Shown here piece after piece: positions 1,631 to 58,636 of a stretch of 64,000 bases of DNA (positions are counted from its first letter, which is position 1; each line of letters starts with the position of its first letter). The stretch spans positions 5,866,501-5,930,500 of the forward strand of contig OY727103.1 in assembly GCA_963402885.1 (NCBI GenBank). Reading direction: 5' to 3'. The DNA is from Antedon bifida. Taxonomy: Eukaryota > Echinodermata > Crinoidea > Comatulida > Antedonidae. The notes under the pieces are model-generated. The model did not search any database. It was not told the DNA's origin and worked only from the letters and a program-made list of their open reading frames with translations. A program made the translations under genes and the position numbers.

Positions 1631-4600
1631 GTAAGACATTTTTCTTTTGGGTTGTCCTGAAAAAAATTACCTGGATAAACTGACATAAAAGAAATGGTGA
1701 GGTGTGTATGGGTGTTCCACTGTCTTGGAGGGAAGTCTTTTAAGTTATGTTCTCCATTCAAAAATGAAAAGGGCTTATATCGGTTTATTAAAGTAAACTA
1801 TAGGCATGAAATAGACACAGTTAACTTAAATAACTGAAGTCGTACTTGTTGGTTTTTGTGTTCAATATCAACTCTCCATCTTTCAATAATTCCAAAAGTA
1901 CAGTGGTTTGTAATCAATATAATTGGTTTTGGCAGAATATTTTATGGCTTTAACTGCTTAATATATAACATCAATATGTTTGTATTGGCGTCAGACAAAA
2001 ATAATTTAACTGTTCTATCAAATTAAATCTATACTTTATGACTGATGACTCGATTATTCAAATGAACTCTGCAGGTGGTTTTATGCTGTTACACCTGTTT
2101 TATGCTAATGATCGACTTTGTTATGCAACACTTAGTCAGCAATCACTCAAGAGCAAGGGCTGTTTGCATTTTTAAAGAGATTCGTGTTGTCTAACTTTTC
2201 AACGTTGCCTCATTGGTACTTCATGAATAAAGTTTGCATCTAGGTAGTCTAGCAGGCTATGATACTCCCTAGCCCTTTAAAACTATTTAAACATAATCAA
2301 GAATCCTTGTTAAACTTACTCAAGAATTCTTTTTCAAGCTTCCAGGATTATCATTCCCATAATTCTTTCCAAACCACCTTGATCCCATACAATATTGGGT
2401 TTAATTGTAATATTTGATCTTAAAAAAATCTTATTCATAAGAAAGGGTAACAATCACCTTTCTGAATTGGTTTTCTTTAATTTGCTTTTACTGTATTTGT
2501 AAGCAAACATACACACATTGATTTTAGAAATTATTTTAGCATACTGAAAAATATGAAAGTTTGTTATTCTGAATACAAATGCCATAATATAAAAATTACT
2601 GTACTTTTTGTTTGCATTATAATTTAACTAATTCCTATCATCCTGAAAGTTTTTGTTTTTGTTAAAGGTTTTCCCACAATGCCCACTTGGAAACATAATA
2701 ATAATCAACCTTTATTTTCCTGATTGTGAAGTGAAACAACACATTTTTGCAAAATTTAGCGACTAAATCTTACATTATTTCACAAATGCTAATGTTATCA
2801 CATAAGACGTGTTTTTGTTGTGGGTAACCATGACGTCATTATGGTTTATTTAAGGTACGTATCCTAATGATTTAGCTGATTAGGTAACCTGGCAATTTGT
2901 TAATTGAATACTTCCCTGCTTTAGCGAAATGAAAGATGCTAACATTAATTGCTAACCGTGCGATAAAAACCAAATCAAAATGCTTTCTTTCACAGTAAAA
3001 TAGAAATACTACTGGAGAACCAAAAAATGCCAGTTGGCAATAAAATGTTTGTTATAAAGTATTTTTGCTCTAAAGTCTAACACATCTATGTATATCTGTG
3101 GATTCGGAGCCTGATCCTGAGGGGAGTTCATTAGGCAACCCACGTCCCTTCTACCATACCCACTAACTTTTTCCTTCTGCTTTCTGTATATTTCACTTAA
3201 AAATAAAAAAAGCACAATATAGATTGCCTTCGGCATGAATGCCCCTTCCTCGCATACACAATGCTAATTGTGATTTGTTAATTCTGTAGTATGTGTCATT
3301 CAATGTTAGCTATTGTACTATAAAAGTTCTATTACAGTATGTGATTCTCATACAATATTTACCTTTTTGTAAACATTTGAATAATTCTTATCTATTCTGT
3401 AGCAAAAGGCTGGTATTTGGTTTAAAATAAAGACTTTAATGTAAAAGTTTCTATTGTGAAATGTGAACTTCATTTGACATTTAAAAAAATATCAAATTTG
3501 TAATCTCCTATCAAGATTAGAAAATGTAAAAAAGGAAATTCGTAATTATTGGATAATTTCATTTTACATAGATTTGATTTAATTTTTTAATTCATAACAT
3601 CTGCTTAACAATTTAAATAAATAATACCATACATTTTTAAAAACTACCTTGAACATAAAAAAGTCCTACGTTTTTTAGATCTAAGAGAGGACATTCACCA
3701 CGAGCTACTGCACATACAGTAGGTAGTGCATTGTTTTTCTCTTTTTATTATAATTTACCATAAAACGTACATTTAAGACAAGGAATGACCTGGTTTAATG
3801 TTTTTAAATAATATATATATTATATTATTATTATGTATGCATACTTTTCACAAAACATCAACAATTGTAGGGAATGGGTCTTTAAATTAAAATTATGAAC
3901 ATTCCAAATACCTCATGATAATCAAGAAATCTCAGGAATAAGTTTTCTTGCTACACATTTGGAATGTTGCCATTTACACAAAATATTGCTGAGGCAATTT
4001 TGAGGTTTTACAAATTAAAATGGTTTATTAATCTTTAAATATATTTCCTATATTTTTATTTTTAACAACTATCAATTGACATTTAATCCGATTAGATTTG
4101 AATTTTTTTTCTTAAGGGCAAAATATATTTAGATGCAAATGGTTTAGTGACCATGTCAAAATTATTCTACTACAGTTACTGCAGTAACTACATTGTGTTT
4201 ACTCTTTAACCTGTTTTTTAACCTATTATTTACCTTTTTTAGTCATATACTCTGTTTATTGCAGTGATTGCCTCATAAACTTTTTACATTGAAATCAACA
4301 AAAATCAGTGTTTAATTTGTGCTGATTATAATTCTAATTAACTAAGAAATTATATTAAATTATATTTTATTGACTGACCTGTTTTATAAGAGAGCGACCA
4401 ACAGTCTAGAATCTGTCAAAAGTCCCGACATCACGTAATCTGCAGGTCAACCGAATGGCACCATTTCAATTCATAGGATGCTATTTTGGATACTTAATGT
4501 TGACACCCCGTGGGACATGGTGTAGGACATCAAGTACCCATGGGACACTTGTATAAGGACACAGCTTACACAAGGGGACGTATTTCTTTCCTTAAAGGAA

Positions 4601-7600
4601 GAAATTTTTTACTTTAAGGTCATAATGTCATGGGTCAATGCCTGAAATTTTAGTCATAATAAATAAATAATAAAAGATTCATAATGGTTATAAACAATTT
4701 TGCAAATTTAAACTTGGATATACTGTTTTAAGAATATAAGTCATCTTTTCATTTCTTCTTTGTGAGATACACACACCTTTGTTTCCATTTCAGTGCATTA
4801 TAATATCTTTGTAACATTCAATAAAAACATTTCTTTGCATGATGTATAACATCTTTTTAAACTTCTCAAGTTGTTGATGAAAATTATGTTAGATAAAATT
4901 ACTGTTAGTAATCCTTTACTTTATAACTCTATTTGCCAATTGTTAGTTCCTTTACTAGATCTTCCAGAACTTTAAATCAGCATTCAGTTACTCTATTAAG
5001 AAGTTGTTACATGTAAAGGAAATACTACTACATCACTAATATAGAAAATATTATTAAAGGTTATCTTGATGTTCTGTACATTTATGTTAATATTTTAATT
5101 CATGTTTGATGATTTAAATCAGTACCTTAACTGATTAAACAAAGTTTTAATTATGCATCATAAATTTGGCTTTGGCATATTCTGAAATAGTGGGACTATT
5201 GATAACTAACATGTTTGCAGTTCCAAGTTTATGGTAGGCCTACTTGTTTGAAATAGAAATTAGAGTCAAGCATGTCATGGAAGGTTCCCTTTTTCCTAAA
5301 GTGCGATTTTCAAACTAGAGACCAACAGAAGTAATAGTAGGCCTTATACTAGCCTTGTCCATGGGCTTGGTAGTACATAGGTTTTTTTCGTGTGCCAAAA
5401 GTGCCATCTTTGTAGTTGAAGGTTGAGGCAAGTATCTGTTGGCATGGGAAAATGCTGTAACATTGACATGGTTGAATTGAAGCAGAATGCCAGGGTTTAT
5501 CCATACGAGAAGACTTGTTCCACATCCACCAGAACCTTAGAAACTACAGAGATTTTATAGCTAGATCTTCCCTGCCTTTCTACTTACGGCCAATCGACAT
5601 TAACTACTTTCAAATTCATTATTGGCAAATGTGCAATTGTCCCACACAACATTTCTATTATATTTGACCTTTAACCATTTTAATTCAAATTGAGTGGATG
5701 ATTTGTATCTTGTTATTCTATTTTGTCGTGAACTTTCTAATTCCAAATTTAGTGACAATCTTTACAAGGTATCTTACCTATTTTGTATTTATCTTTCCTA
5801 AAGAAAGTACAATATTTTGTATCTCATAAATGAATTGAAAATTATTTTCCTTTCTATTGTTATTGCTTTAATGGGTTAAAGCACTATGCTACGACAAGGA
5901 GACAAACACAGATATCACATGACATTGGGATGACCCAATCTGGGAATTTGAAAGGAAGTTGTTAACAAGAGATACCTCACGGATCGCTTGCTGCCGAAAC
6001 TAAACCTGATCATTCATTTAATATGATGGTTTCCTGTTGTTCTTGACTTACAATGTTTAGGTCTATTGATAATATCGTTAAATTTAATTCATATTGCCGA
6101 TTGCTACTTTGCGCAACAATGTATACTTTCAACACTTCCCATAATATAACACGTTTTAGTTTAGGTAGATTTGAGATAGTGCTGACTTTTAATCCCCAAT
6201 ATTTAAGCATTACCTTTAACACAATAATCAAGTTATGTTTACAGCTTGTTTATAATGTATGCTTATAGCTGTGTAAAACTTATCAGCATTATTCACATAG
6301 TGAATACAATTCATATCGAATACAAGTTTGATATAAGTTCTAAATGTTCAACAGTTTCTAAATATGGTGCTTTGCAAAATGTTTAATTTCAATTACATAC
6401 ATCTGAATAATTTTGTTTAGGATGTATTTATTTTTATGTTAACAGTTCTTCCTAAAAAGTTAAAATTATATGCAGAAAAAAAAAATCAGACATGTACTAC
6501 TATTACATGTCTTGAAATGACGATGATTGTCTGTGGGGATGCTCCCACATGAGAGTATTGTGGACTATACCATTTGTGCAAAGGGGTTTAATACAAAATA
6601 AAAATATATATATATATAAATTTCTATTTTTGATTTATATCTCACTCTTTATGGAGAATAGGTTACTGTTGGTTTATCCAGGTAAACTAGATACGAAATA
6701 GAACATTATGTTTGCCTGCTTGTTGAAGTTTTAAAATTGTCAGAAATGTCAAGAGATTTTTTGAAAACTTAAGGTCAAATTATAACAAAAATCTTTATAA
6801 TTCACATTAATAAAACTTTAACAAGAATGATCTATGTTATCATAATTCATCATAATGTTTCAATGACGCATGCATGAAGGTGTCACATTAAATAAAATGT
6901 TATCTCAAAATTGAAATTGTGTAAAATCCATTTTGGCACATAAACTGAGAATTCACACTGTATAGTCTCAAGTTCACAATCTTGGATTTCCACACGTTTT
7001 TTTTCCCCTTTGTTTCTAATCTAATAACAGCTTTTGAAATTTCCTTGCTTGTTTTACTGTAAGAAATCTTAAATATCAAATTATTAAAAGCCTACAGCTG
7101 CCTGATCTATGATACATTTACTTGTACACTGAATGCTACTAAAAAGTGCAAAACCTTGGATTAAAATCGGAATTATTTCATTTTTAAAAGGATTGTTAAC
7201 ATTTTGTCCATGGGTTGAGTCTGGACATCATAAACTTATTGAAATATCAAAACGGTTCACTCAAGAGTACACAAAATCTTTGTCAAATTTGAACTTTCAT
7301 AAACAATTTTGCTATAGACATCTATAGCCCGATAGATACATTTTGACTTATGCATATCCATGAAGCCTCTATGCGCTTCACATTAAAGGAAAAAGTTTTC
7401 AATAGATGGTAAAAATAGGTAGAAAGTTGGAACTGGAAAGCCAACAATGATGTTAACTGGAAACTGTTGGTATTGCTTTAAAATAAACTTAAGTAGTTCA
7501 TATTTGTTTTTGCTAAATAGGTGTCATATTGAATTATGAATATTACCACAATTACATAACTTCTATTTGTCCTATGCAATGTCAGGGATCGCTTCAGAGA

Positions 7601-10600
7601 CTCAGGCATTCCAGATGGCCCGGCCGCCCTCGCGGCGAAATCCCGACGGGAATCCACTCTTGCTGTCTACAATAGCCGATTAAAGCATTTTTTCAAATGG
7701 TGCAAGCGCCAAAAGACTAACCCTATGAAAGTGACTTTGGGCCAGGTCTGCGCCTTTCTGCATTACCTGTTTGAGTCAGGTCTGCAGGTTCGCACCGTAT
7801 CCGGCTATCGGTCTGCCTTGGGTGCAGTAATTCCGACCTTTAAAGACGGCTCGACCATCTCTTCATCCCCTGCAATTTCAAGTTTGCTTCGCGGGATGTT
7901 TCGAGAACGGCCTCCTACTAAGGCCTTGATTCCACGTTGGGACGTCAATGTCGTCCTAGCCGCTCTTATGCGCCCACCCTTCGAGCCCCTGAGTAGGGCA
8001 TCGCTTTACAACCTGTCTCTCAAAACTGCCTTTTTGATTGCACTAGCCTCGTGCAAGCGCAGAGGTGAACTGCACGCTCTATCTCTGGAGCCAGGGCACG
8101 TCAGGTTTGAACGGGGTGGCGCTCGGCTAGTGTTTAGGAAAGATTTTCTTGCAAAATCTCAGACATTGAACTTCTCGCCGCCGACTGTGTTTGTTCCCAC
8201 CATTGCTGCTTATTCAGGGGTTGAGGAAGACAAACTTTGGTGCCCAGTGCGAGCACTAAAGTTTTACATCAAACGCACAGAGTCCATTCGGGTCTCAGCG
8301 TCACACCTGTTCATATCGACAGTGTCACCTTTTCGACCGGCTGCGCGGTCGACACTTGCAAACTGGGTCGTGGCAGCCATCCGGGCTGGCTACGACTCCA
8401 CAAATACGCCTCCTCCGGCACATATGCACCAAGTGCGTGGCATAGCCGCTTCATGGGCGCTGTTTGCTGGGGTGCCTCTCCCTGACATCCTGCAAGCGGC
8501 ATGGTGGCGATCGCAGTCCACCTTCACATCCCACTACCTGTCGGATACCTCCACTCACCAGTCTTCGGTGGCGGCTTCAATCTTGAAGCCCAGACACTAG
8601 GTACGTATAAGAATGTTTACCTTGCCTCCCGCCTCCGACTAGACTCTAGTCCGGTGCTACACTGGCTTATGTTGGTTTATCCAGGTAAGCTAGGCACGAT
8701 ATAGACTACACAAACCAACAGTGGTGTTGGTAGTCTATGAGTGCCGCTTACCTGGATAAACGCCCTCCCTACCGTCCCCTCAGGCAAGTGGTCTTGAGAA
8801 ATGATGACGATGATAAGTGGGCGTGTCTCACTTGAGGGCGTACTGGTGGCGGACTGATCCATTATCCGACGGGGGTGTGGGAAAATTAATGTTATTAATG
8901 TTCTTCTTTTCGTAATGTTTACCTCTCGTCGGAGAGGCCAAACAGCAGCGACGAATTGGTAGAAGTGGTCATGGTTTCGGAACACATGATCCTGATCTGC
9001 AATAGGCATGTGAAAGCACTCTTTAGCGTCTTTCGGTCTATTGTGGCAGCCCAGTCGCCTCGTCTTAGCCCCAACAGGATAGATGAGGCTGTCTCCATCC
9101 TACCTGCAGGGCCGAATGAACCGTTTGGTTTATGAATTCAACGCCAAAGAAAATAAAGGACAGTACCGCCGTCCGTTTCGCGAACGCCTGCAGACCTTCC
9201 TCCCCAGGCCCGTCTCGTTCTCCCATACTTATTCTTGGAGAGTGAGACCATCGTCCTATCACTGTCATCTCTTGCCAGATAGACGGACCATCGTAAAAAC
9301 AAGGTTTGCTGTGGGCCTTTATATCGATATATGAAACTGGGGGAGGAGGTCTCATGTGAGAGGGTGCGTTGGGCTCATCCCTCGGCAGAGCTCTCTGTGC
9401 TGCAACGATGGCTTGCAGTAACAACGGAGAAATCTCATTCACCCCCGGGACCGCAGAGGCCGCAGCGGGTGCAGGCATGATTGGAGGTGCATTGTAGCTG
9501 CACTGAAAACAACAGCTGATCCGAATATACGGACCGTGTCCAAAATGAAGTGTCAACTATGACTCAGCTAGAAAACCAGACCAGTCAGGAAAGAAGCATA
9601 GACAAGATCTTTGATCCTGCAGTATGTAGGCCTAGGCCTCTTATATAGACTAAGTTCCAGCTAGGCCTTACAAAATTATGTCTAGCCACAATGTTATTGT
9701 TAGGCAACATGCATGGGCAACATCTGACCCTGCAAGATCTAGGCCTAGGCCCCCTATGAGAGCATTAATAAAATTTAAGAAACTCAGGAGGCCAGCCTAC
9801 AATAAGCCTAAACCACAATGCTAGGCAGTAGACAAGCTGTCCTGCTAGATTTAGGCCTGGCCACTATGGTACTGCAAACATTTCAGCCAGTTGGCCTAAG
9901 TGAAAACATTCACAAAAATGCTTGCTAAAAGTCATTTTATTGACATTTCAAAGTTCAATGAATCTCTGTAACCAAGAAAAACTACTTAGCTTCATATAGC
10001 AGCAGTCTCAGTATCAAAACTCTATTGCAACAGCAAGAAAACTGTGCAAGCTCTTTGAAGACATGTTTACTCTTTCATGTCTCGAAAAGAAATGATGATG
10101 GTGGTTTGTGGGCAGGCTCCCACTTGAGGGCATAGTTCATGGACTATACCATTTGTGGAGAGGGGAATTCAATGAAAACTTCTACTTTTCGAGTTATATC
10201 TCACTCTTCGAGGAGAAGGGGCTATTGTTGGTTTATCCAGGTAAGCTAGGCACGAAATAGACTACATAACTTCTATTTGTCCTATGCAATGTAATTAATT
10301 TTTTTTTTTCATTTGAAAGGTTGATTATAGAAAATATCTTTATCAACATGGTAGTTTTGTTCTTGACAGTTTCGTCATTCTTTGGTGAATAGCTTCTTCT
10401 GAAGAATCTAGAAAAATTGAAAATTACGATAATAAAGTTTGTTTTTCAATTTATTTTTTAGGCTGTATACGATATTTGTACTCTATGGGTTAACGACCGT
10501 TGTGTAGAAGCGATCGAGACATTTGACAAACTTGTCAAACGTGTTCGTGCAAACTCAATGTCCTCAACGAAAAGTCTCTACTTCACCGACTTACACGATG

Positions 10601-23630: not shown

Positions 23631-24003
23631 CTAAGGCTCTGTCTACATTGTCAACTTTGCATACGATTCCCAGTGCTGTATCTCCACATACTATCTATTT
23701 CCAAAGTATCATAGGAATATTTTGTAACACAACATCTCATTTATATCACATGTGGTGCCTGTAGTATGTAAGGTTTATGGTTAGGTTAGAACTAAATACA
23801 CGTGAAACAAATGGGATACTGTATACCAAATATTCCTATAAAAATTAGGAAATAGGATAGTACAGTACCGAGATTTTGAACTTTATGTGACAAAAAATGT
23901 TATGTGCCTATATGCACATCATGATGATGTCATATCACTACCATATTTGGGCACATCACACTTTTTTTGTCAAACTAGTTTGATAGTGTAGACAGAACTT
24001 TAA
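23631..24003. mobile_element. TTAA-type MITE copy with internal insertion
   Basis: The ends CTCTGTCTACATTGTCAAC and TTTGATAGTGTAGACAGAA are inverted, with TTAA at the right edge (24000-24003). The right half (CACTACCATATTTGGGCACA) matches copies at 31192 and 42535. The extra middle part has its own inverted pair (CATACTATCTATTTCC and GGAAATAGGATAGTA), so a second small element appears nested in it. Confidence 0.5.
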
Positions 24004-28246: not shown

Positions 28247-29828
28247 AATCTGTCTAAATCCACGATTCCCTGTCCAATACATCTCATATCTCGAACATAG
28301 TGGTGGGCTATCGTAATTAGTCTTTATGTTGTTTAAACAAAATTGATACTATTTCTCATTGTATTATATGTTAAATATTGATGCTACATTTTATAAATAT
28401 CAAAATTATTAATGAAAAGTTTATTTAAGTTTATTTTTTATCAATCAACAATTTTAATGATTTTAACTTTGTTCTGAATATTGTATTTATTTGTTTTATT
28501 GAGGGCCCTTAATGATAAGTTCCGACTGGATAGGCCACCCTCATAACAAATGGTTTTAAATAAACAAATAATAAAAGAAAGGTTCACATATTACAGTATA
28601 TATTGTAAACCACACAGTTGGTCACACAATTTATTTTTTAAGGGTAGATTTTTGTGTTTGAAAAACGTTGATAGAGGATGTGAATCAAGAACCATGGAGG
28701 ATGAGGATGATTGAACAAACTTACCCTAGCATACCATGTTCCTTTGTTTTAATGCGGTGAAGGAACAATAGAATACACTGGAACATATTGCTTCTACCCT
28801 GAAAAAACAATAGAAACATATCGTCAAATAATATGGGTATTCAATACAGAAATATATATGAACATTACTTTAACTCTGATTGTCAGTCGACGTTGACTGG
28901 CAGCAAAATGCGTTGGATAGCAGATTCAACGATTTTACAGAAAAAGTGGGTAAAAATAAATGCTAAAAGTAGTTAAAACAATGATTGCAATCGTTGAACT
29001 AGGTTTATCTTCAACTCGGCGCAACTTAACGTTGACTGGAAAGCAGGCTTTGTTATTAAGTGCTTCAACACCATTGACTTACTTCAATCGAAATCGCTTT
29101 TGTGTCAGAGAGTGAGCGCTTACCGGCTAAACCCAGGGGTCCCAGAGCTTAAGCTGCCCCAATACAATTACTCAGCATTAGGAGTACTAAACCAGGGCCT
29201 TTCCCTCCCGTGTTCCACCAAAATTATCGCTAAACAGATCCATGCATTAGCCTAAGCTCAAGATGGGACTCTCTCTTAACAGGTGTTCTGCTACCGGGCA
29301 AGTAAGGTCCTGAATCTCACCAGAATATTATAGCATATCCAAGATTCTTAACGCTTAAATTACTTAATTTTGTACAAAAAAAGAGTTAAATTACCCATTT
29401 CATTGTTTGGGATCATGTCAAAACTATTAAAAAAAGTTATTTTTATTATTGTATTTTTATCAGCAATTTTAACAGCACTATTCACTTTCATTTTATCTCT
29501 AAGATGAGTCATCATACACTCCTCAAGCAGTGTAAGTAAATATTTAGGTAATGCAGTATATATCTATAAACCTTGTATACAATATCCAAACAAAAAGAAC
29601 CAATCAAAGTCATACAAAAAGCTTAAAATGTCATCAAGAAAGTAAACATGTGAATTCATGTACAGTATACAACAAACACAGTTTTCCTACACAAGTCACA
29701 AGCAGAGCGATTAAATAAACTAAATCCATCAATTGTAGACTTTTTCTTATTTTTCATAATGTTAGGTATCAAAATCATTCTTCTGCATTTATTGCAATAA
29801 ATGTAACTGCAAAAACAGTTAGTCAGAG
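28247..29828. other. Intergenic stretch, nothing coding recognised
   Basis: AT-rich, with one GC-richer patch at about 29100-29330 (ACCCAGGGGTCCCAGAGC, GGGCCTTTCCCTCCCG) that is neither an ORF nor a known RNA by eye. Confidence 0.4.
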
Positions 29829-30050
29829 CAATCTAACAACAGGACACTGAGCTCGCCTTGCCAAGATAGAAACTCGTAACAGTCCTTTGATCTTATGTCT
29901 GGCTGCGACAAATACCAACATTGCTGTATACTGTGTACATATTCTTTGAGGCGCAAAGTATCTGTTAAGTGGCGTGGAACTGATCGTGTCACAGCCACAG
30001 ATAAACCCTTTGATATCCGGAGCTCAGCATCCTTTTGTTAGATTGCCTTG
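29829..30050. mobile_element. hAT-like MITE, copy 1
   Basis: Inverted ends CAATCTAACAACAGGACACT and GTTAGATTGCCTTG, flanked by GTCAGAG on both sides (29822-29828 and 30051-30057), a 7-8 bp target duplication. The body is about 220 bp, non-coding, and matches 50492-50681 in inverse orientation. The duplication length suggests hAT; that is inference. Confidence 0.6.
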
Positions 30051-30833
30051 GTCAGAGTGTCACAATAATATAAACAAAATCCTATTTAGGCCTACTGTAA
30101 ATATAATAAGCTGAAAATGTGGATGGGAATATTTCGACTGCCTCATATAAAATGTTGGTTGATAAATTATGATAGACTAACTCTTATTTGCATTGAGTAA
30201 TACAACAATACCTGACTATAAAATGTTGACCTTTGTGATGAGAGTAATGATATAAAACAAACAGGAAGAACATACAACAACCATTTTAAACAGTGTGAGA
30301 GGAGACATATAGAAGTGACCAAAGCAGTTAGTACTGAAACCATCAACATATTTCAAAATCAAAGAAAACAGTTTAAAGTACAGAAAATCACAATTATTCT
30401 ATTGGCCCAATTCATTTTATATTGTTTTATTTTTCTAACAATTCATAAGGGATCGTGTCGAAGTAATGTTGCTGCTGTCATTAATCAATGGTATTGCAGT
30501 TACTATAGTCAAAATATTTTAACATGATCAATAGCAATTATGTGTTGATGTACGTCGACTTTTTAACTGCTGTTTACTTTTTTTTTGTATCTTGTTGTTC
30601 TTTCTTTTGGATGCACCTCTTTGTCACATGCTACTGTAAAATTGTAAACTCCAAATAAATTATTATAATTATTGCGGCTGCCATACATACAGTTATGATT
30701 TCATGATTAGGCAGAGTACTAAAGAATCTACTGTAGATGGTCGGAAAGAATGAAAGTTTATTAAGGTCACAAGGTTGAACATTTAACCTACCACTTTATG
30801 AAAATTAAGCTCTGTATATATATATATATATAT

Positions 30834-30997
30834 AAATCCAAAGGCAAATTACTGAAAAAAATGACAATGCTGTGGGTATCAGTGGCTGGATCTCAATGGA
30901 GATACAAAAAAAAAAAGCGAAAAGCTAAATCAAAACGATAAAGTAAACAGCCAGAAAAGTTAGCAGAGCTTTCGGGCAACACTAGCCCTTCATCAGT
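30834..30997 (-). mobile_element. Short hammerhead-bearing retroelement, copy B
   Basis: Read on the minus strand it starts with a hammerhead core (30961-30996), runs through CTTTTCTGGCTGTTTAC and GAGATCCAGCCACTGATACC, and ends TTTGCCTTTGGATTTA against a (TA)n run (30815-30833). Copies of the body lie at 34040-34165 (+) and 43604-43705 (-). Non-coding, about 165 bp. Hammerhead ribozymes of this kind occur in Penelope-like elements and retrozyme-like repeats of animals; membership in either is inferred. Confidence 0.6.
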
Positions 30998-31001
30998 GCA
31001 A
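30957..31001 (-). ncRNA. Degenerate hammerhead ribozyme core
   Basis: On the minus strand: CUGAUGA (30996-30990), an extra A, stem II GGGC/GCCC with a 7-base loop, GAAA (30973-30970), and stem III AGC-UCU-GCU followed by A17 at 30961. Invariant core bases are all present. Stem I does not pair (UUGCA before the core, ACUUU after the cleavage site), and the extra A weakens stem II, so self-cleavage in cis is doubtful. Confidence 0.55.
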
Positions 31002-31012
31002 TATATATATAT

Positions 31013-31177
31013 ATAACTAAGTAGAAAGCCAGAACAACTGGAGAAAGTGCTCAATACCATGGGTAGAGCTTAATACAATAAACAAATAAAAACTATGAAC
31101 TTGGTTACTTCATGGTGCTTTATTACTACAAATTTGTTTCATATGACCAGCAAAGCTGGCCACACTCATCAGGTAAT
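31013..31177 (-). mobile_element. Short hammerhead-bearing retroelement, copy A
   Basis: Begins on the minus strand with a complete hammerhead (31177-31122), continues through AGCACCATGAAGTAACC and CCAGTTGTTCTGGCTTTC, and ends at a (TA)n run at 31001-31015. Copy B starts directly after that run, so the two lie head to tail. The bodies differ, but both share a TTCTGGCT-T block and the plan ribozyme - body - (TA)n. Confidence 0.55.
31122..31177 (-). ncRNA. Complete hammerhead ribozyme (type I)
   Basis: All core and stem elements are visible on the minus strand. Stem I is AUUAC (31177-31173) with GUAAU (31126-31122). Then CUGAUGA (31172-31166). Stem II is 11 bp with a UUU loop (31165-31141, GUGUGGCCAGC with GCUGGUCAUAU, three G-U pairs). 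Then GAAA (31140-31137). Stem III is A-CAAAUUUG-U (31137-31128), very short as in dimer-acting retroelement hammerheads. N17 is A at 31127, so cleavage would fall between 31127 and 31126. This matches the known hammerhead consensus without exception. Confidence 0.85.
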
Positions 31178-31191
31178 GTACATATATATAT

Positions 31192-31344
31192 TATCAAACT
31201 ATTTTGACAAAAAAAGTGTGATATGTCCAAATATGGTAGTAATTATGCCTAAATATCATAGTGATATAACATCATCATGTCCATATATGGGCACATTACA
31301 TTTGTTTTTGTCACATCAAATTTGATAGTGTAGACAGAGCTTAA
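31192..31344. mobile_element. TTAA-type MITE, left end truncated
   Basis: TATCAAACTATTTTGACAAA at the left and TTTGATAGTGTAGACAGAGC with TTAA (31341-31344) at the right. Matches 42535-42688. The left tip is missing where the hammerhead element begins, so that element may have inserted into or next to it. Confidence 0.55.
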
Positions 31345-31569
31345 GGGCCTGTTTCTGCTGCATATAGCGCAGAATAAACCATTTATTAAAAGGCTTGCTG
31401 AAGAATTGCATTTAAAAAAGTTAAAGAATAAACAAAATTTGATTACTGCAGTAATTGCAGTAGAATGTTTATATGGTCCTTTACACAACAATTGGAATTT
31501 TCAAATTAACTTTAAAAGTTAGGATCATCAGCTAAATATATTACTCAATTTTTTGTAAAGAACTTTGAG

Positions 31570-33115
31570 ATGGCAACTAAGGAAGTATCTAAAGAGTTCC
31601 AAACCCTCGAAGAAGACGTACAACTTTACAAGCAACAACTGGAAGATGGCCTGAAAGCTGTTGATAGTACTGCAAGAAAATTAGAAAAAAGCAAAGAATA
31701 TAGTTACATAGATATTGATCTCCATGTAGATGAAATGGTTAAAAATATTCAAGAAAGTGGTAAGAGAATGAAGAACCAAGTGGAGAGAATGTTTGAGAAG
31801 AAGAAAAAGGCAATCGAAACACAGGCTGCTCACCTCAATAAGAAAAAAGCTGCAGTCGATGCCAAAATGGAATCTCTAACTCAAGTGCTGGAGAAAGGAG
31901 AAGTAGAGATGGCATCAGTTAAAGACGGAATAAAAGAGCTGCAAGAATTTATCAAGGAGTCACCGGACACAAAACCAAACGATAACGGAGAGATTTACTT
32001 TGTGAAAAACAAGCATCAAAGTTTGTTGACTTTTAACATCGGAAATGTTACACAAACAACGGCAAGCTATCACATTGTGGAACACGATTCTTCCTCCAAA
32101 GGGGAGAATATTATTGTTGTAAAATTGCACCAAATTGGAGACATCGACGAAAGTAAACTGAGCGCTACTTGGACACACCCAACGGGAGAAACGAGCATCA
32201 ATAAAGTCGAGCAAGATGAAAAGGGTGATTACATTGTCGCAGAGAAATACACGTTTCCAGGTGTTTGCAAAATAGAGGTTAGTGCTGATGGCAGTCTAAT
32301 CGAGCAATCGCCAATAATAATCACAGTTGAGAAGTCAAAACTTTTAAACACGATTCCTGCAAAAGATGGCGACGTACAAGATGCCGTGAAATTTGATGAC
32401 GACAGCTTACTTGTTTCGTGTAATGGTGGAATTAGTAAGTATAATTATTCGGGAGAATGTTTGGGTGCGATTGCGCTACCAGAGGGTGCAAAGGTCAACC
32501 GAATGCTGAAAATAAATGATGATTGCACAGCTTTCAGTGACAGTGGCCGTAAGTGCGTAACAATATGCAACATAAATGGCGAGATTGTTAAATCAATCGG
32601 TGAGGGCGTGTTGAAAGACCCTTATGGTATGTGTGTAGATGAGGTGTCAAACACTTTATGTCGCCGATTATGAGGATGATTGCGTGTTTGTGTTTAACAG
32701 CAAAAGCGGTGAGATGATCAGAACTATTGGTGCACAAGATGGAGAGGTACTTAGAGGAACCATTGACGTTGCTTTAATTCAAGGGGATGTCCTTATATTG
32801 CGACATACCAGTAGGAAACTAGAATTATTTGGTAATAAGGGAAGGTTCATTAAAAACCTTGTCACAATCGGTGGGAGTGGGAATGGATTTGTGCTTTATC
32901 CCAGTGGGTCAGTAGTCGATGATGATAACAACATCATTATTGCCAGTAAACAGAAAATCCAGCTTCTAAGTAATACCGGAGATTTCATTAAACGAATCGA
33001 TACTCCAAAAGATGGAATATTTGATCCGTGTGGAATATCCATCATTTCCAATGATCCGAGAACAGTTTCTGTAGCCAATCGTGGTAACAAAACAGTAAAA
33101 CTATTCCAATATTAA
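31570..33115 (+). pseudogene. TRIM2/3/71-like coiled-coil-filamin-NHL gene with frameshift
   Basis: Single-exon frame from ATG 31570 (context GAGATGGC) that shifts by +1 near 32660 and then runs to TAA at 33115. Order: coiled coil with long Glu/Lys helices (about residues 1-135), a filamin/Ig-like domain (about 150-255, with WTHPTGETS), then NHL-type beta-propeller repeats on both sides of the shift (DPYGMCVDE, TLYVADYEDD, DPCGISIISND). TRIM-NHL proteins use such propellers to bind RNA or protein; this one lacks the RING and B-box of full TRIMs. Two bases appear lost between NT and YVADYE. Both halves look well preserved, so it is either a young pseudogene or a real gene with an assembly error. 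No introns, so retroposition is possible. Confidence 0.7.
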
Positions 33116-33116
33116 T

Positions 33117-33570
33117 AGTTCTGTCAAAAATAATCAGAACTGCTACTGTAAACTTATTGTTCTGTAAAAAATAATCAGAACTGCTACTGTAAACATATTG
33201 TTCTATAACAAATAATCAGAACTGCTACTGTAAACTTCTTGTTCTGTAACAAATAATCAGAACTGCTACTGTAAATTTTATTTTTCTGTAACAAATAATC
33301 AGAACTGTACTTCTTCTTTGACATAATATAATTAGAAATACTACTGATAAAATTATTTTTCGGTAACATAATATAATGAGAACTGCTACTGTTAAACTTG
33401 TAATAGTGTAACAATACAGAACTGCTACTGTTCAACTTTTTGTTCTGTAACATGTAATATAATCATATTTTTCTGTAATAAATAATCAGAATTGCTACTG
33501 TAAACTTACTGTTCTGTAACAAATAATCAGAATTGCTACTGTAAACTTATTGTTGTGTAACAAATTATCA
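33117..33570 (+). repeat. 41-bp tandem repeat behind the NHL gene
   Basis: About ten copies of a unit with AATAATCAGAACTGCTACTG and GTAAACTTATTGTTCTGTAA, spaced 41 bp (for example 33135, 33176, 33217), starting two bases after the stop codon. A minus-strand frame through it is a by-product. Confidence 0.85.
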
Positions 33571-33919
33571 GTACTCAGAAATGTGTTTATTGAAATGTAA
33601 TTGACTATTCTTTAGAATTATTTTGATATAATTTTATAAAATATAAAATAATAAGTAATAATAATAATAATAATCCATTATTCATATATAATTGGATATA
33701 CTCCTCAATACTATTTTGGAAGTTAAAAAGAACTAATTCATATATTATATCATATATATTACATTACAAATTATACATTATACTGGTTTTATGTGTTTTG
33801 ATGACTTTCCATTTCACTAACCTGTAAGTACTCTAGAATAAGCCCATATTTGGGCAAAAGCCTACCCTGAGTTGTATTCTTACCTAGCTGTTCAATCAGT
33901 GTATTAAGACAGGACTTAC

Positions 33920-39553
<5,634 letters not shown>

Positions 39554-40930: not shown

Positions 40931-43900
40931 ATGGCATCTAAAGAAGTGACGAGCACTTCTAAGCAACGCTTTGTTGACATCCACCATCCAGATTTCGATA
41001 GTTATGACAATGAGATGTCGGTGGAAGATTACAACTTCTACTCAAAAAACAAAGATGAGTTCCGCAAAATGTGGTTTGATCAAGTACGCTAACCTTTCGT
41101 TATTGCATGTTAAAGAACTTGTTAGGAGGATCGTCTGAATCAAAAAGAGCTGCTGTGTGAACCATCCATCCATATTTTATATCATAATATGACCAGACGA
41201 TATTTACAAATCCATTAAAAATAAATCGTCAACACAATACAAAAAGCTTGATAAAATAAATTTCAATTTTTACAAATAAAATAATAATAAATGAATGAAT
41301 AAATCCGAATACATATCTTTTTCTTTACATTCATGTAAACAATTGATTATTTAAAATTGAATTTTTTGTGATCCAAAACAAATTAGAATTTATGAAAAAC
41401 CTATCTTCATTTTAAAATCATTTATTTCTCATTTGTAAATAAATTATAAGGCATAAAAAAAGATAAACACAATATGCTTATTACGAACAAAGTCCTACAG
41501 TACATGGTCTTTTGGAGTCGAGTAATTTTTGTATTGAAAAAAAAACCCTGGAACCTGATAGGACTAGAACCCAGGACCCTAGGATTGAAAGCCAAGCATC
41601 TTAACCACTGAGCTACTCTATATTGTTATATTAGACATGGTCTATTACTAATGCTGGTATCTTGATTGTTTTATTTAACTGGTTTTATTACTTTTCGCAG
41701 ACTTTACTTTTCTGGAAGCGGTTCAATCTCAACTATAAAGCATTCCTCGTCGACTATGGAACGGTTTACAAACTACGAGCTTCGGTAAGATTTTTTAAAA
41801 TTAGGAACAATAGAATATGTTTGTATATTTTTTTTTTTCCGAACTTACTCTTCTTATTAATTTACATAGGAAGGATGATATACAAATAATGAATTTTTAT
41901 GAGTGGAATGGTACAAATAATTTCATGATGCAAATTATGAAATTCTATTTTCACGTGAAAATATAATTTCTAAAAATGAAATTCGCACGAATATAAAAAC
42001 ATTCATTATTTGTTTTTATAACATCTAAGTAGATAATTGCCATTCATGTTCTGATCTTGTTGTTGCGAAGGAGTAATCATGTAGTACGCGTTCCATTCAC
42101 AGAAGCTATTGGATTGCACAAAAAATAATTTTGTTAATACTATTACACGATCGTTAAATAGTACATACTATTCCACAATCGTCCAATCAATATTTATTTA
42201 AGTGTTATATAAATACAATTGAGTTCATTTTCAAATCCAGATAATTGATAAAAAAAAGAAGTAAATAAAATATAGATAATTGAAAAGTTAACAATAATAA
42301 TTGGAAGAGATGCCTTCGAAAGGTTGCACCACCTTTTCAAAAACAAAGACAAAATGCCCAACACAACATGAACAAAGAATGTTATGGATATGGATGAAGC
42401 TGACATCATCATACAAATACAGATACAAATAAAAATATTTCAATTAGTTGTATTGCTTATTACAGGGACCCCTGATGGACATGTTACTGAAGGAATGTTG
42501 GGGATACCTGGACAGACAGACTACAAAGTGTAAGTTAAGCTCTGTCTATACTATCAAACTAGTTTGACAAAAAAAGTGTGATGTGCCCAAATATGGTAGT
42601 GATATGCCCAAATGTGGTTGTGATATGACATGATCCATATTTAGGCATCACATTGTCATATAAAGTTTGATAGTGTAGACAGAATTAAGAATTAAGAACG
42701 TAAACAGATTGGCTTTCAGTGACAGCAAAGTGTTACAAAATATTATTTAGTATATTATGAAAACACATACAGTAAATCATCATATATTTTTGTAAAGCAA
42801 CATGCAGATAAAAAATTTATATAAATATGAATAATTTCTTGGTAAATGTCTAGCATTTTTGCATACAAGGATCATATACAGTAATATACACGCTGCAGGT
42901 GTGTTGATCTGTGTGGGCGCTTTACTTCTGGCTTCCGTAGGTCCGAAGGTGATGGGCAAATCCGAATTTCCTCAGTTTCCAGTTAACCTTGAGGACGATA
43001 CTAAATACATTTATTAATGCGTGACTGCATAGAGGGCGTGAATAGCGTATCGAATGTTCGATTGCCGCAGCCATATTGTTGATAGCTGCAATGCTAACTA
43101 TTTATGTATTAATATGGTAGTTGGACAATTTTATTTTGTGTTACAGCAAATGATGTTGAACTTGTTATGCGGCTGATTGAAGATGGTTATGTGTTGATGA
43201 AATCCAGAGACAAACTACCGTTTGTTGACGTACGTGATAGAGGTAAATAAATGTTTCAAATCATCAATTAATATACAAATAATGAATGTTTATGAGTTGG
43301 ATTGAAAATTCCAAATGGACACGTGATGCGTAATTACCCAATAAATTTACAAGAATGTAATCGGTTGTGTTTGAGATATATATCAATTATTACTAATTAT
43401 ATTGTTTGAATTTTCGAAGGTTTTACTCTCTGACTTGTATTCTTTATTTAGAAAAATGCCCTTTCCTGAATGAAACCACTAAAAAAATTTTCCGAAGGTT
43501 TTTTGGAGCTCCAAGAAAAAATGGTTTACGGTTAAAGGTCAGTATCTGGTTTTCTAATACAAATGGTTTTTATATGTAATAGCTTTGTATACAAATTAAT
43601 GTATGAATCCAAAGGCAAATTACTGAAAAAAATGACAATGCTGTGGGTATCAGTGGCTGGATCTCAATGGAGATACAAAAAAACAGCCAGAAAAGTTAGT
43701 TTTGGTAAAAGTGAATAACTATTAAAAAAAGGAAGAAAAAAAAAATTATTATTAATAAATTAAAAATGTTGTTTGTCAATACCCACCCTATTTTGCAATT
43801 GATTTTTGTCCCATGCCAGTGTCAGGACTGTAATTAACAGTAATATCTGTTGTTCCAGGTGTGGTATCAGTATCCTTTATATGTCAAATATACAGCAGCA

Positions 43901-57149: not shown

Positions 57150-57378
57150 TTTCTCGAAACCGCTAGCGGATGGACCTCTGCGTCTACAAAGAATGCGATT
57201 GCGTCTGCAAAAGTACGACATAAAGATAATCTATGTACCTGGAAAATCACTCCAAACAGCGGATACTCTTTCACGAGCAGTTGACGAGACATACCAACTG
57301 TCGTCAGAGCAACAATTTAATGATGACATTGATATGTATGTACAATCAATAATTGCAGCGCTACCTAGCTACTACTGA
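57150..57378 (+). pseudogene. Ty3/gypsy RNase H C-terminal remnant
   Basis: Reads PLRLQRMRLRLQKYDIKI then YVPGKSLQTADTLSRA, the typical end of gypsy RNase H before integrase. The frame stops at 57378 after SIIAALPSYY; the integrase continues in another frame. Confidence 0.75.
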
Positions 57379-58636
57379 CAAAAAACTCAAGGAAATTGAA
57401 GTTGAGTCAGGCAACGATGAAGCGATAAGAGAACTGAATCGCACAATTCAACAAGGATGGCCTAACAAGCGAAACAAATTCCACCCAGCAACACGAGATT
57501 ACTGGAATTATCGTGATGAGCTATCAATAAAAGGCGATCTCGTATTCAAAGGTGATCGAATCGTAATACCTGCTAAAATGACAAAGGACATGCTTAAGCA
57601 AATCCATACTGGACACTTGGGTATCGAAAAATGCAGGAGACGGGCTAGACAATTCTGGCCAAACATCAACAAGGACATAGATGACAAAGTAAAATCTTGT
57701 CCGACATGCCAGAAACACCAACCAATGCAACCAAAGGAACCAATGGTATATGCAGCCGATAACACCCAACCATGGCAAAAAATTGGGGTTGATCTTTTCA
57801 CGGTAAACAATAACAATTACATCACATGTGTTGACTATTATTCTCAATACATTGAAGTTCGTCAACTAACAAGTTCATCTTCAGCAGCTGTAATCAACAT
57901 ACTGAAATCATGGTTTGCGATACATGGTACACCATTTGTACTCTTTTCTGATAATGGTCCACAATTCGTCAGTGAAGAATTTCGGAAATTCACCAACGAA
58001 TGGAACTTTGAACATACAACTTCCAGTCCATATTTTGCGCAGTCAAATGGACAAGCTGAAAATGCAGTAAAGATAGTCAAACGAATTATCAAGAAATGTA
58101 CAGAGACAAAGGAAGATATATACTTAGCACTACAGATATATCGTGCTACACCACTCGAGCATGGACTTAGTCCAGCAGAAATGATGTTCTCAAGGAAAAT
58201 CAGATCAAACCTCCCAGTTAATGAGTCAGCGCTAAAACCAAAACTTATTGACTTAAAGGAAAAGAAGGATGAGCTAAAGCAAAAACAAGCGCGGAACTAT
58301 AACAAACATTCAAAAACTCTAGAAACCATACAATACGGACAGAAAGTTAGAGTATATGATACAACATCTAAGTTGTGGAACAAAGTTGGAACAATTCACA
58401 AATCACTACCTCATAAATCTTATCTTGTGAAATGTGGAAATAATATCTATAGACGGAACAGAAGGCACATCATGCCAATACCATCCATTGACAGATATGA
58501 CAATGACGACTATGACTCGGATGACGACGTACCGGTTCCAAATGACAGAAATCGTCAAACTACCGATCAAAACCGACCACGACGTCAAGCCCGACGACCA
58601 GCATACTTAGACGACTATGTTACAGACAAAATATAA
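57353..58636 (+). CDS. Ty3/gypsy integrase fragment
   Basis: Shows the zinc-binding HHCC region (HTGHLGIEKCR ... CPTCQKHQ) and the catalytic DDE set (Asp in KIGVDLF, Asp in LFSDNGPQF, Glu in GQAENAVK), followed by a C-terminal part with GQKVRVYD and an acidic/Arg-rich tail. Integrase joins the retroelement cDNA to host DNA in the nucleus. The integrase core looks intact, but the element is truncated and shifted out of frame with RNase H, so it is non-autonomous. Confidence 0.85.
   Translation: MQRYLATTDKKLKEIEVESGNDEAIRELNRTIQQGWPNKRNKFHPATRDYWNYRDELSIKGDLVFKGDRIVIPAKMTKDMLKQIHTGHLGIEKCRRRARQFWPNINKDIDDKVKSCPTCQKHQPMQPKEPMVYAADNTQPWQKIGVDLFTVNNNNYITCVDYYSQYIEVRQLTSSSSAAVINILKSWFAIHGTPFVLFSDNGPQFVSEEFRKFTNEWNFEHTTSSPYFAQSNGQAENAVKIVKRIIKKCTETKEDIYLALQIYRATPLEHGLSPAEMMFSRKIRSNLPVNESALKPKLIDLKEKKDELKQKQARNYNKHSKTLETIQYGQKVRVYDTTSKLWNKVGTIHKSLPHKSYLVKCGNNIYRRNRRHIMPIPSIDRYDNDDYDSDDDVPVPNDRNRQTTDQNRPRRQARRPAYLDDYVTDKI

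Follow-up and report, generated by a model that had tools for sequence, protein, structure and literature searches.

Paired hammerhead ribozyme motifs in a TMEM209 intron of the crinoid Antedon bifida, probably carried by terminal repeats of two Penelope-like element families

We analyzed a stretch of 64,000 nucleotides from the crinoid Antedon bifida (GCA_963402885.1, contig OY727103.1, positions 5,866,501 to 5,930,500; hereafter the window), which belongs to an assembly with 27 contigs and a total of 315.6 Mb. The TMEM209-like protein of the brittle star Amphiura filiformis maps to the window as minus-strand exons from approximately 38.9 to 28.7 kb, and the last mapped intron spans 5.1 kb with the ends GTAAGT and TTTTTTCAG. 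Two hammerhead ribozyme motifs, HHR1 and HHR2, lie in this intron in sense orientation (Table 1). Along the minus strand, unit A with HHR1 precedes unit B with HHR2, and a (TA)n stretch lies before, between, and after the two; unit B begins approximately 4 nt before the HHR2 core. An earlier note on this DNA had reported HHR1 as a single hammerhead, overlooking HHR2, the two adjacent terminal repeats (pLTRs), and the sense-intron position.

Table 1. Hammerhead motifs, repeat units, and the host intron in the window.
Feature	Position	Strand	Remarks
HHR1, type I hammerhead	31122..31177	-	11-bp stem II, loopless 10-nt palindromic stem III; predicted cut 31127/31126
HHR1 stem I 5' strand ATTAC	31177-31173	-	direct sequence reading
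HHR1 core CTGATGA	31172-31166	-	direct sequence reading
HHR1 stem II GTGTGGCCAGC-TTT-GCTGGTCATAT	31165-31141	-	direct sequence reading
HHR1 core GAA	31140-31138	-	direct sequence reading
HHR1 stem III ACAAATTTGT	31137-31128	-	direct sequence reading
HHR1 A17	31127	-	direct sequence reading
HHR1 stem I 3' strand GTAAT	31126-31122	-	direct sequence reading
HHR2, minimal PLE-type hammerhead	30963..30999	-	predicted cut 30966/30965
PLE pLTR unit A, solo copy	31017..31183	-	5' end ~10 nt before HHR1 core; then (TA)n 31002-31015
PLE pLTR unit B, solo copy	30836..31000	-	then (TA)n 30815-30834
Unit B copy, 5'-truncated, without hammerhead	34038..34174	+	starts 11 nt past HHR2 cut site
Unit B copy, 5'-truncated, without hammerhead, internal deletion	43581..43699	-	starts 2 nt past HHR2 cut site
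TMEM209 intron (GT..AG), both hammerheads in sense orientation	28799..33919	-	exon mapping, splice ends

Other features were also found in the window. Nested in the same intron on the opposite strand are a TRIM71-like ORF (31570-32673), for which the best protein is the TRIM71-like protein of Anneissia japonica (40%), and a second ORF that overlaps it in a different frame, the two together covering 31570-33115 (+). Another ORF of the window has a receptor of Antedon mediterranea as its best protein (66%). A MITE-like inverted-repeat element (31192..31328) adjoins unit A and has related stretches at 42547-42683 and 23879-24000; it is overlapped by weak Rfam microRNA-family matches, all far under the cut-offs. 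Mobile-element ORFs are located at 7725-8600 (+) and 57353-58636 (+), with matches to a tyrosine recombinase (sub-threshold) and to the retroelement integrase domains rve and Integrase_H2C2.

Direct reading of the 56-base HHR1 motif bears out the earlier note's statement that every invariant hammerhead base is present, and agrees with the cut site predicted there. The bases C3 U4 G5 A6 N7 G8 A9, G12 A13 A14, the A15.1-U16.1 pair, and H17 are all in place, following core rules given in a section of PMC3088659, and so are the core-flanking pairs of stems I, II, and III (C-G, G.U, and A-U). Stem I (5 bp) and stem II (11 bp) also stand as first described. G.U pairs make up three of the 11 in stem II, including the core-closing 10.1-11.1 wobble, which is mostly G-C in other HHR1 subfamilies. 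The third stem, read in that note as ACAAA/UUUGU, requires revision. The segment ACAAAUUUGU has no loop, and within a single molecule no more than 3 bp are possible, closed by an AAUU loop; the 5-bp ACAAA/UUUGU pairing is possible only between two copies, as a 10-bp palindrome. A reading of HHR1 as a complete monomeric ribozyme is thus not supported, since its palindromic stem III needs a partner copy.

For a single HHR1 molecule, the native fold has a calculated energy of −14.5 kcal/mol versus −16.5 kcal/mol for the MFE fold, which shifts stem I, and the 3-bp stem III adds almost nothing (−14.5 with and −14.4 without). When two HHR1 copies are joined, a double hammerhead can be drawn in which stem III has 10 bp; its energy is −39.5 versus an MFE of −40.1, a gap of 0.6 kcal/mol. 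As modeled, the stem III palindrome would be suited to a hammerhead dimer. HHR2 (GCA-CUGAUGA-A-GGGC-UAGUGUU-GCCC-GAA-AGCU-C^UGC) likewise has a palindromic stem III, AGCU, which only the dimer form can use; the drawn dimer has −17.3 versus an MFE of −22.0, i.e., 4.7 kcal/mol above the MFE. Because the palindromes of HHR1 and HHR2 differ, neither can serve as the partner of the other.

Both strands were scanned with a descriptor that demands exact CTGATGA and GAAA, stem II of at least 4 bp, stem I of at least 3 bp, U16.1, H17, and a palindromic or hairpin stem III. This descriptor recovered HHR1 and HHR2 in the real window versus two motifs in total among 757 dinucleotide-shuffled windows, and none of the 757 shuffles gave a match with stem II of at least 8 bp and stem I of at least 5 bp. 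A relaxed scan of the window that permitted one core mismatch revealed no third motif. These results exclude a chance origin of the two motifs. The earlier note was right that chance is unlikely; the covariant pairing it invoked cannot be read from one copy, and is seen instead in the genomic copies described below.

The Rfam covariance-model match proposed in that note was not obtained: there was no hammerhead match at the gathering score within the window, and even at E ≤ 10 neither the 1.1-kb region nor pieces of 61-71 bases with HHR1 and HHR2 matched any hammerhead family. The same tool does detect Hammerhead_3 in L001 (E 7.1e-6; 33.6 bits, under the gathering score of 48.5). Rfam hammerhead models expect a conventional stem III, and the absent match speaks against a canonical hammerhead, not against a PLE-type one. 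The L001 motif itself (6356-6415, type III hammerhead-like) belongs to an IMG/VR viral contig, an unrelated record found by a looser PLE-type pattern. Searches of viral contigs with exact HHR1, HHR2, and unit B pieces found nothing.

Copies of both motifs are dispersed in the genome. A pattern of the HHR1 core bases and palindrome, blind to stem pairing, occurs at 60 places in the 315.6 Mb (reversed-pattern control, 0), and four of these, the window copy among them, have identical 47 bases. A search with HHR1 gave at least 44 matches including the window's own, with 40 of 108 candidates scored. The alignment of the window copy with 40 of the 43 other matches (41 rows) has an intact core in 29 rows and a broken one in 12. 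Three subfamilies are found, with stem I as ATTAC/GTAAT, TCAC/GTGA, or TTGAC/GTCAA; the two strands are paired in each, and across the three, changes on one side of stem I or II are matched by changes on the other. Stem III is invariant in the rows of the covariation test below, and the palindrome is kept in all three subfamilies.

With broken-core and identical rows excluded, 17 distinct intact HHR1 rows were available for a covariation test. Pairing is present in 95.2% of 312 cells, and the covariation score is 0.190 versus 0.102 ± 0.012 for shuffles, none of 500 reaching the observed value; slid structures score at most 0.049. For example, pair 3 of stem I is U-A in 10 rows, C-G in four, and G-C in three. 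Three of the five measures (covariation score, cells paired, and doubly changed cells) beat all 500 shuffles, and two lie within them (both-side-changed pairs, 110/500; further pair types, 330/500). The stem changes reflect approximately three subfamilies of related rows, i.e., few independent events.

The piece from the HHR2 core onward plus the next 15 bases has 430 exact genomic places (control, 0), more than the 193 places of an exact 40-base piece right after the cut site. A start of copies at the cut site itself, an idea prompted by the two truncated window copies, gains nothing from these counts. A search with the 165-bp unit B gave at least 41 matches, with 40 of 1987 candidates scored. 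Four places, including the window, are 100% identical among the matches listed, which marks unit B as a recently amplified family. Twenty fetched B loci were compared by eye, a set that was ranked by full-length match and is hence biased for 5'-end mapping. The 5' ends cluster just before the HHR2 core in 11 of these 20, the window's included, and these 11 share at most approximately 5 nt upstream of TGCACTGATGA with a longer form; an upstream stretch ending in CCAAATTCCCTCACT is common to nine longer copies. Many of the fetched B loci are thus short insertions that begin at the hammerhead. The bodies of units A and B match weakly (6-22 of 5000 shuffles do as well under three lenient scorings, and 218 of 5000 under a strict one), and a separate comparison of the two bodies was not significant.

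Consistent with the link to Penelope-like elements (PLEs) suggested in the earlier note, units of both kinds were found 3' of PLE coding sequences elsewhere in the genome. One ORF in L039 has both RVT_1 (E 9.6e-9) and GIY-YIG (E 1.2e-4) domains, and L031 has a GIY-YIG domain (E 1.6e-5). Unit B is located 184-244 bp downstream of such same-strand coding (type B) in L031, L037, L039, and L087, the GIY-YIG domain in L087 being just under the Pfam cut-off. In L037, B units flank RT coding on both sides, with an inverted A unit in between. Downstream of a second kind of coding (type A), at 90-137 bp, is unit A or its cousin A2 (79% identical) in L037, L039, L084, L086 (twice), L087, and L088. The A unit of L037 is 95% identical to that of the window over 108 bp, and the type A coding there shares 55-71% identity with the L039 protein. 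Type A coding has no Pfam RT or GIY-YIG match; two separate stretches of it, collinear in both proteins, resemble the type B protein at the RT C-terminus (E 6e-5) and at GIY-YIG (E 7e-4). On this pairwise similarity, type A may be assigned to PLEs, more weakly than type B.

Head-to-head inverted A or A2 pairs are present in L035, L036, and L039, and two B units are in tandem in L038; a passage of PMC3846280 describes PLE pLTRs as inverted units. For A/A2 units in L034, L035, L036, and L085 and B units in L032, L033, and L038, there was no PLE coding match within the fetched stretch. In L084, no unit is located just downstream of the type A stretch 3945-4727, and L030 has type B coding to which an A unit is joined. 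Candidate causes that would explain these cases are truncation, nested insertion, and the presence of solo pLTRs. L034 further contains a long short-repeat array (5137-5830), one frame of which reads GVAGDIGP. With three PLE proteins as queries, the window gave no match at E ≤ 1e-4, and no PLE coding was revealed when selected ORFs and the minus-strand frames of 24-42.4 kb were scanned with Pfam. Comparison of the PLE proteins with solved structures gave no match or one irrelevant weak match.

The hallmarks of PLEs, as given in parts of PMC3846280, PMC11167929, and PMC7761336, are RT and GIY-YIG domains, terminal units that are repeated or inverted, AT-rich targets, and repeat-borne hammerheads. 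The unit B motif lies in a terminal repeat whose element codes for RT and GIY-YIG, and the same holds for unit A on weaker grounds; palindromic stems III usable in a dimer and tandem or inverted pLTRs are found as well. We consider it very probable that HHR1 and HHR2 are terminal-repeat (pLTR/3' UTR) hammerheads of two different PLE families in this crinoid genome. The window locus consists of two adjacent solo PLE pLTRs at (TA)n, head to tail, since sister units sit just downstream of PLE coding at several places. In the simplest order of events, unit A would be the earlier insertion, and unit B would have entered the (TA)n tail of unit A later. The window HHR1 is presumably transcribed only through TMEM209 read-through, and would cut slowly, if it cuts at all, since the copy is solo, HHR2 is unfit as a partner, and G10.1.U11.1 is present.

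The 10-nt HHR1 palindrome, conserved while stems I and II changed, could mean that dimer cleavage in trans is obligate between separate PLE transcripts, with intronic solo pLTRs as partners of those transcripts or the reverse; we regard this extension as improbable. Also improbable is that the units are non-autonomous metazoan retrozymes, i.e., short tandem units that type I hammerheads cut out and that are then circularized, a reading that the earlier note's mention of small elements yielding circular RNAs would allow. Two same-strand hammerheads 161 nt apart from cut to cut, a unit size near the 170-400 nt given in a section of PMC7229834, and the tandem B pair in L038 would fit this reading. 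However, HHR1 and HHR2 differ, the A and B bodies match only weakly, both kinds of unit occur 3' of PLE coding, and the 161-nt circle from one cut to the other shows no more folding than its shuffles do (z −0.2).

The sense position in a 5.1-kb GT..AG intron, an intact core, and 47 bases shared with three other genomic copies raise the idea that TMEM209 has domesticated HHR1, which would cut its intron to regulate the message. Intronic hammerheads have been considered as message regulators in other animals. Yet the window HHR1 is one among many dispersed copies, its closing pair is G.U, and a full stem III requires a partner, and we give domestication very little credence. As for a chance hammerhead-like hairpin, the absent Rfam match, the weak single-molecule stem III, and an MFE fold that differs from the hammerhead fold are outweighed by the rarity of matches in shuffles, the 60 genomic places, the covarying stems of the copies, which by themselves refute it, and the PLE linkage, leaving it with practically no likelihood.

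Minimal type I hammerheads of PLEs were reportedly described by Cervera and de la Pena in 2014, and dimer cleavage by PLE hammerheads is said to have been reported by Lunse et al. in 2017. Shared with these minimal forms are the type I class, the location in PLE terminal repeats, a lacking or palindromic stem III, tandem copies, and presumed action as dimers; HHR2 fits this description, whereas HHR1, with its stem II of 11 bp and its palindrome of 10 nt, is longer than the minimal form, which is said to be without helix III. The long stem II and long palindrome make HHR1 a modest variant. Published PLE hammerheads are minimal, tandem, and able to cleave as dimers, as stated in parts of PMC7761336 and PMC6155905. 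The repeat hammerheads of Aedes aegypti, which in a section of PMC3088659 have a stem III that is palindromic and would form 10 bp in a hypothetical dimer, share the repeat-borne nature and the 10-bp dimer stem III with HHR1 but belong to another phylum. That section also gives the Aedes and Nematostella candidates, possibly dimer-dependent, as inactive in the assay used, and a passage of PMC11167929 reports one lizard PLE with no reads ending at the cut site. The metazoan retrozymes, as outlined in part of PMC7229834, are alike in having type I hammerheads and small AT-rich repeats, whereas the units found here are at 3' ends of PLE coding, and the stretch between their cuts is not unusually self-paired. 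The RECK and CTCL hammerheads (PMC6155905) are likewise intronic; unlike them, HHR1 is part of a dispersed repeat.

A literature search of limited extent found no paper joining a hammerhead ribozyme and a crinoid. What is added here is the crinoid host, two families with distinct hammerheads, the covariation test, and the intronic sense position. These findings illustrate that a hammerhead missed by Rfam models can still be recognized from the raw sequence, and that its identity is settled by genomic copies. With hundreds of exact HHR2-core copies, and an HHR1 that combines a fixed palindrome with covarying other stems, a crinoid genome with two hammerhead-bearing PLE families is a good test bed for the role of PLE hammerheads in vivo.
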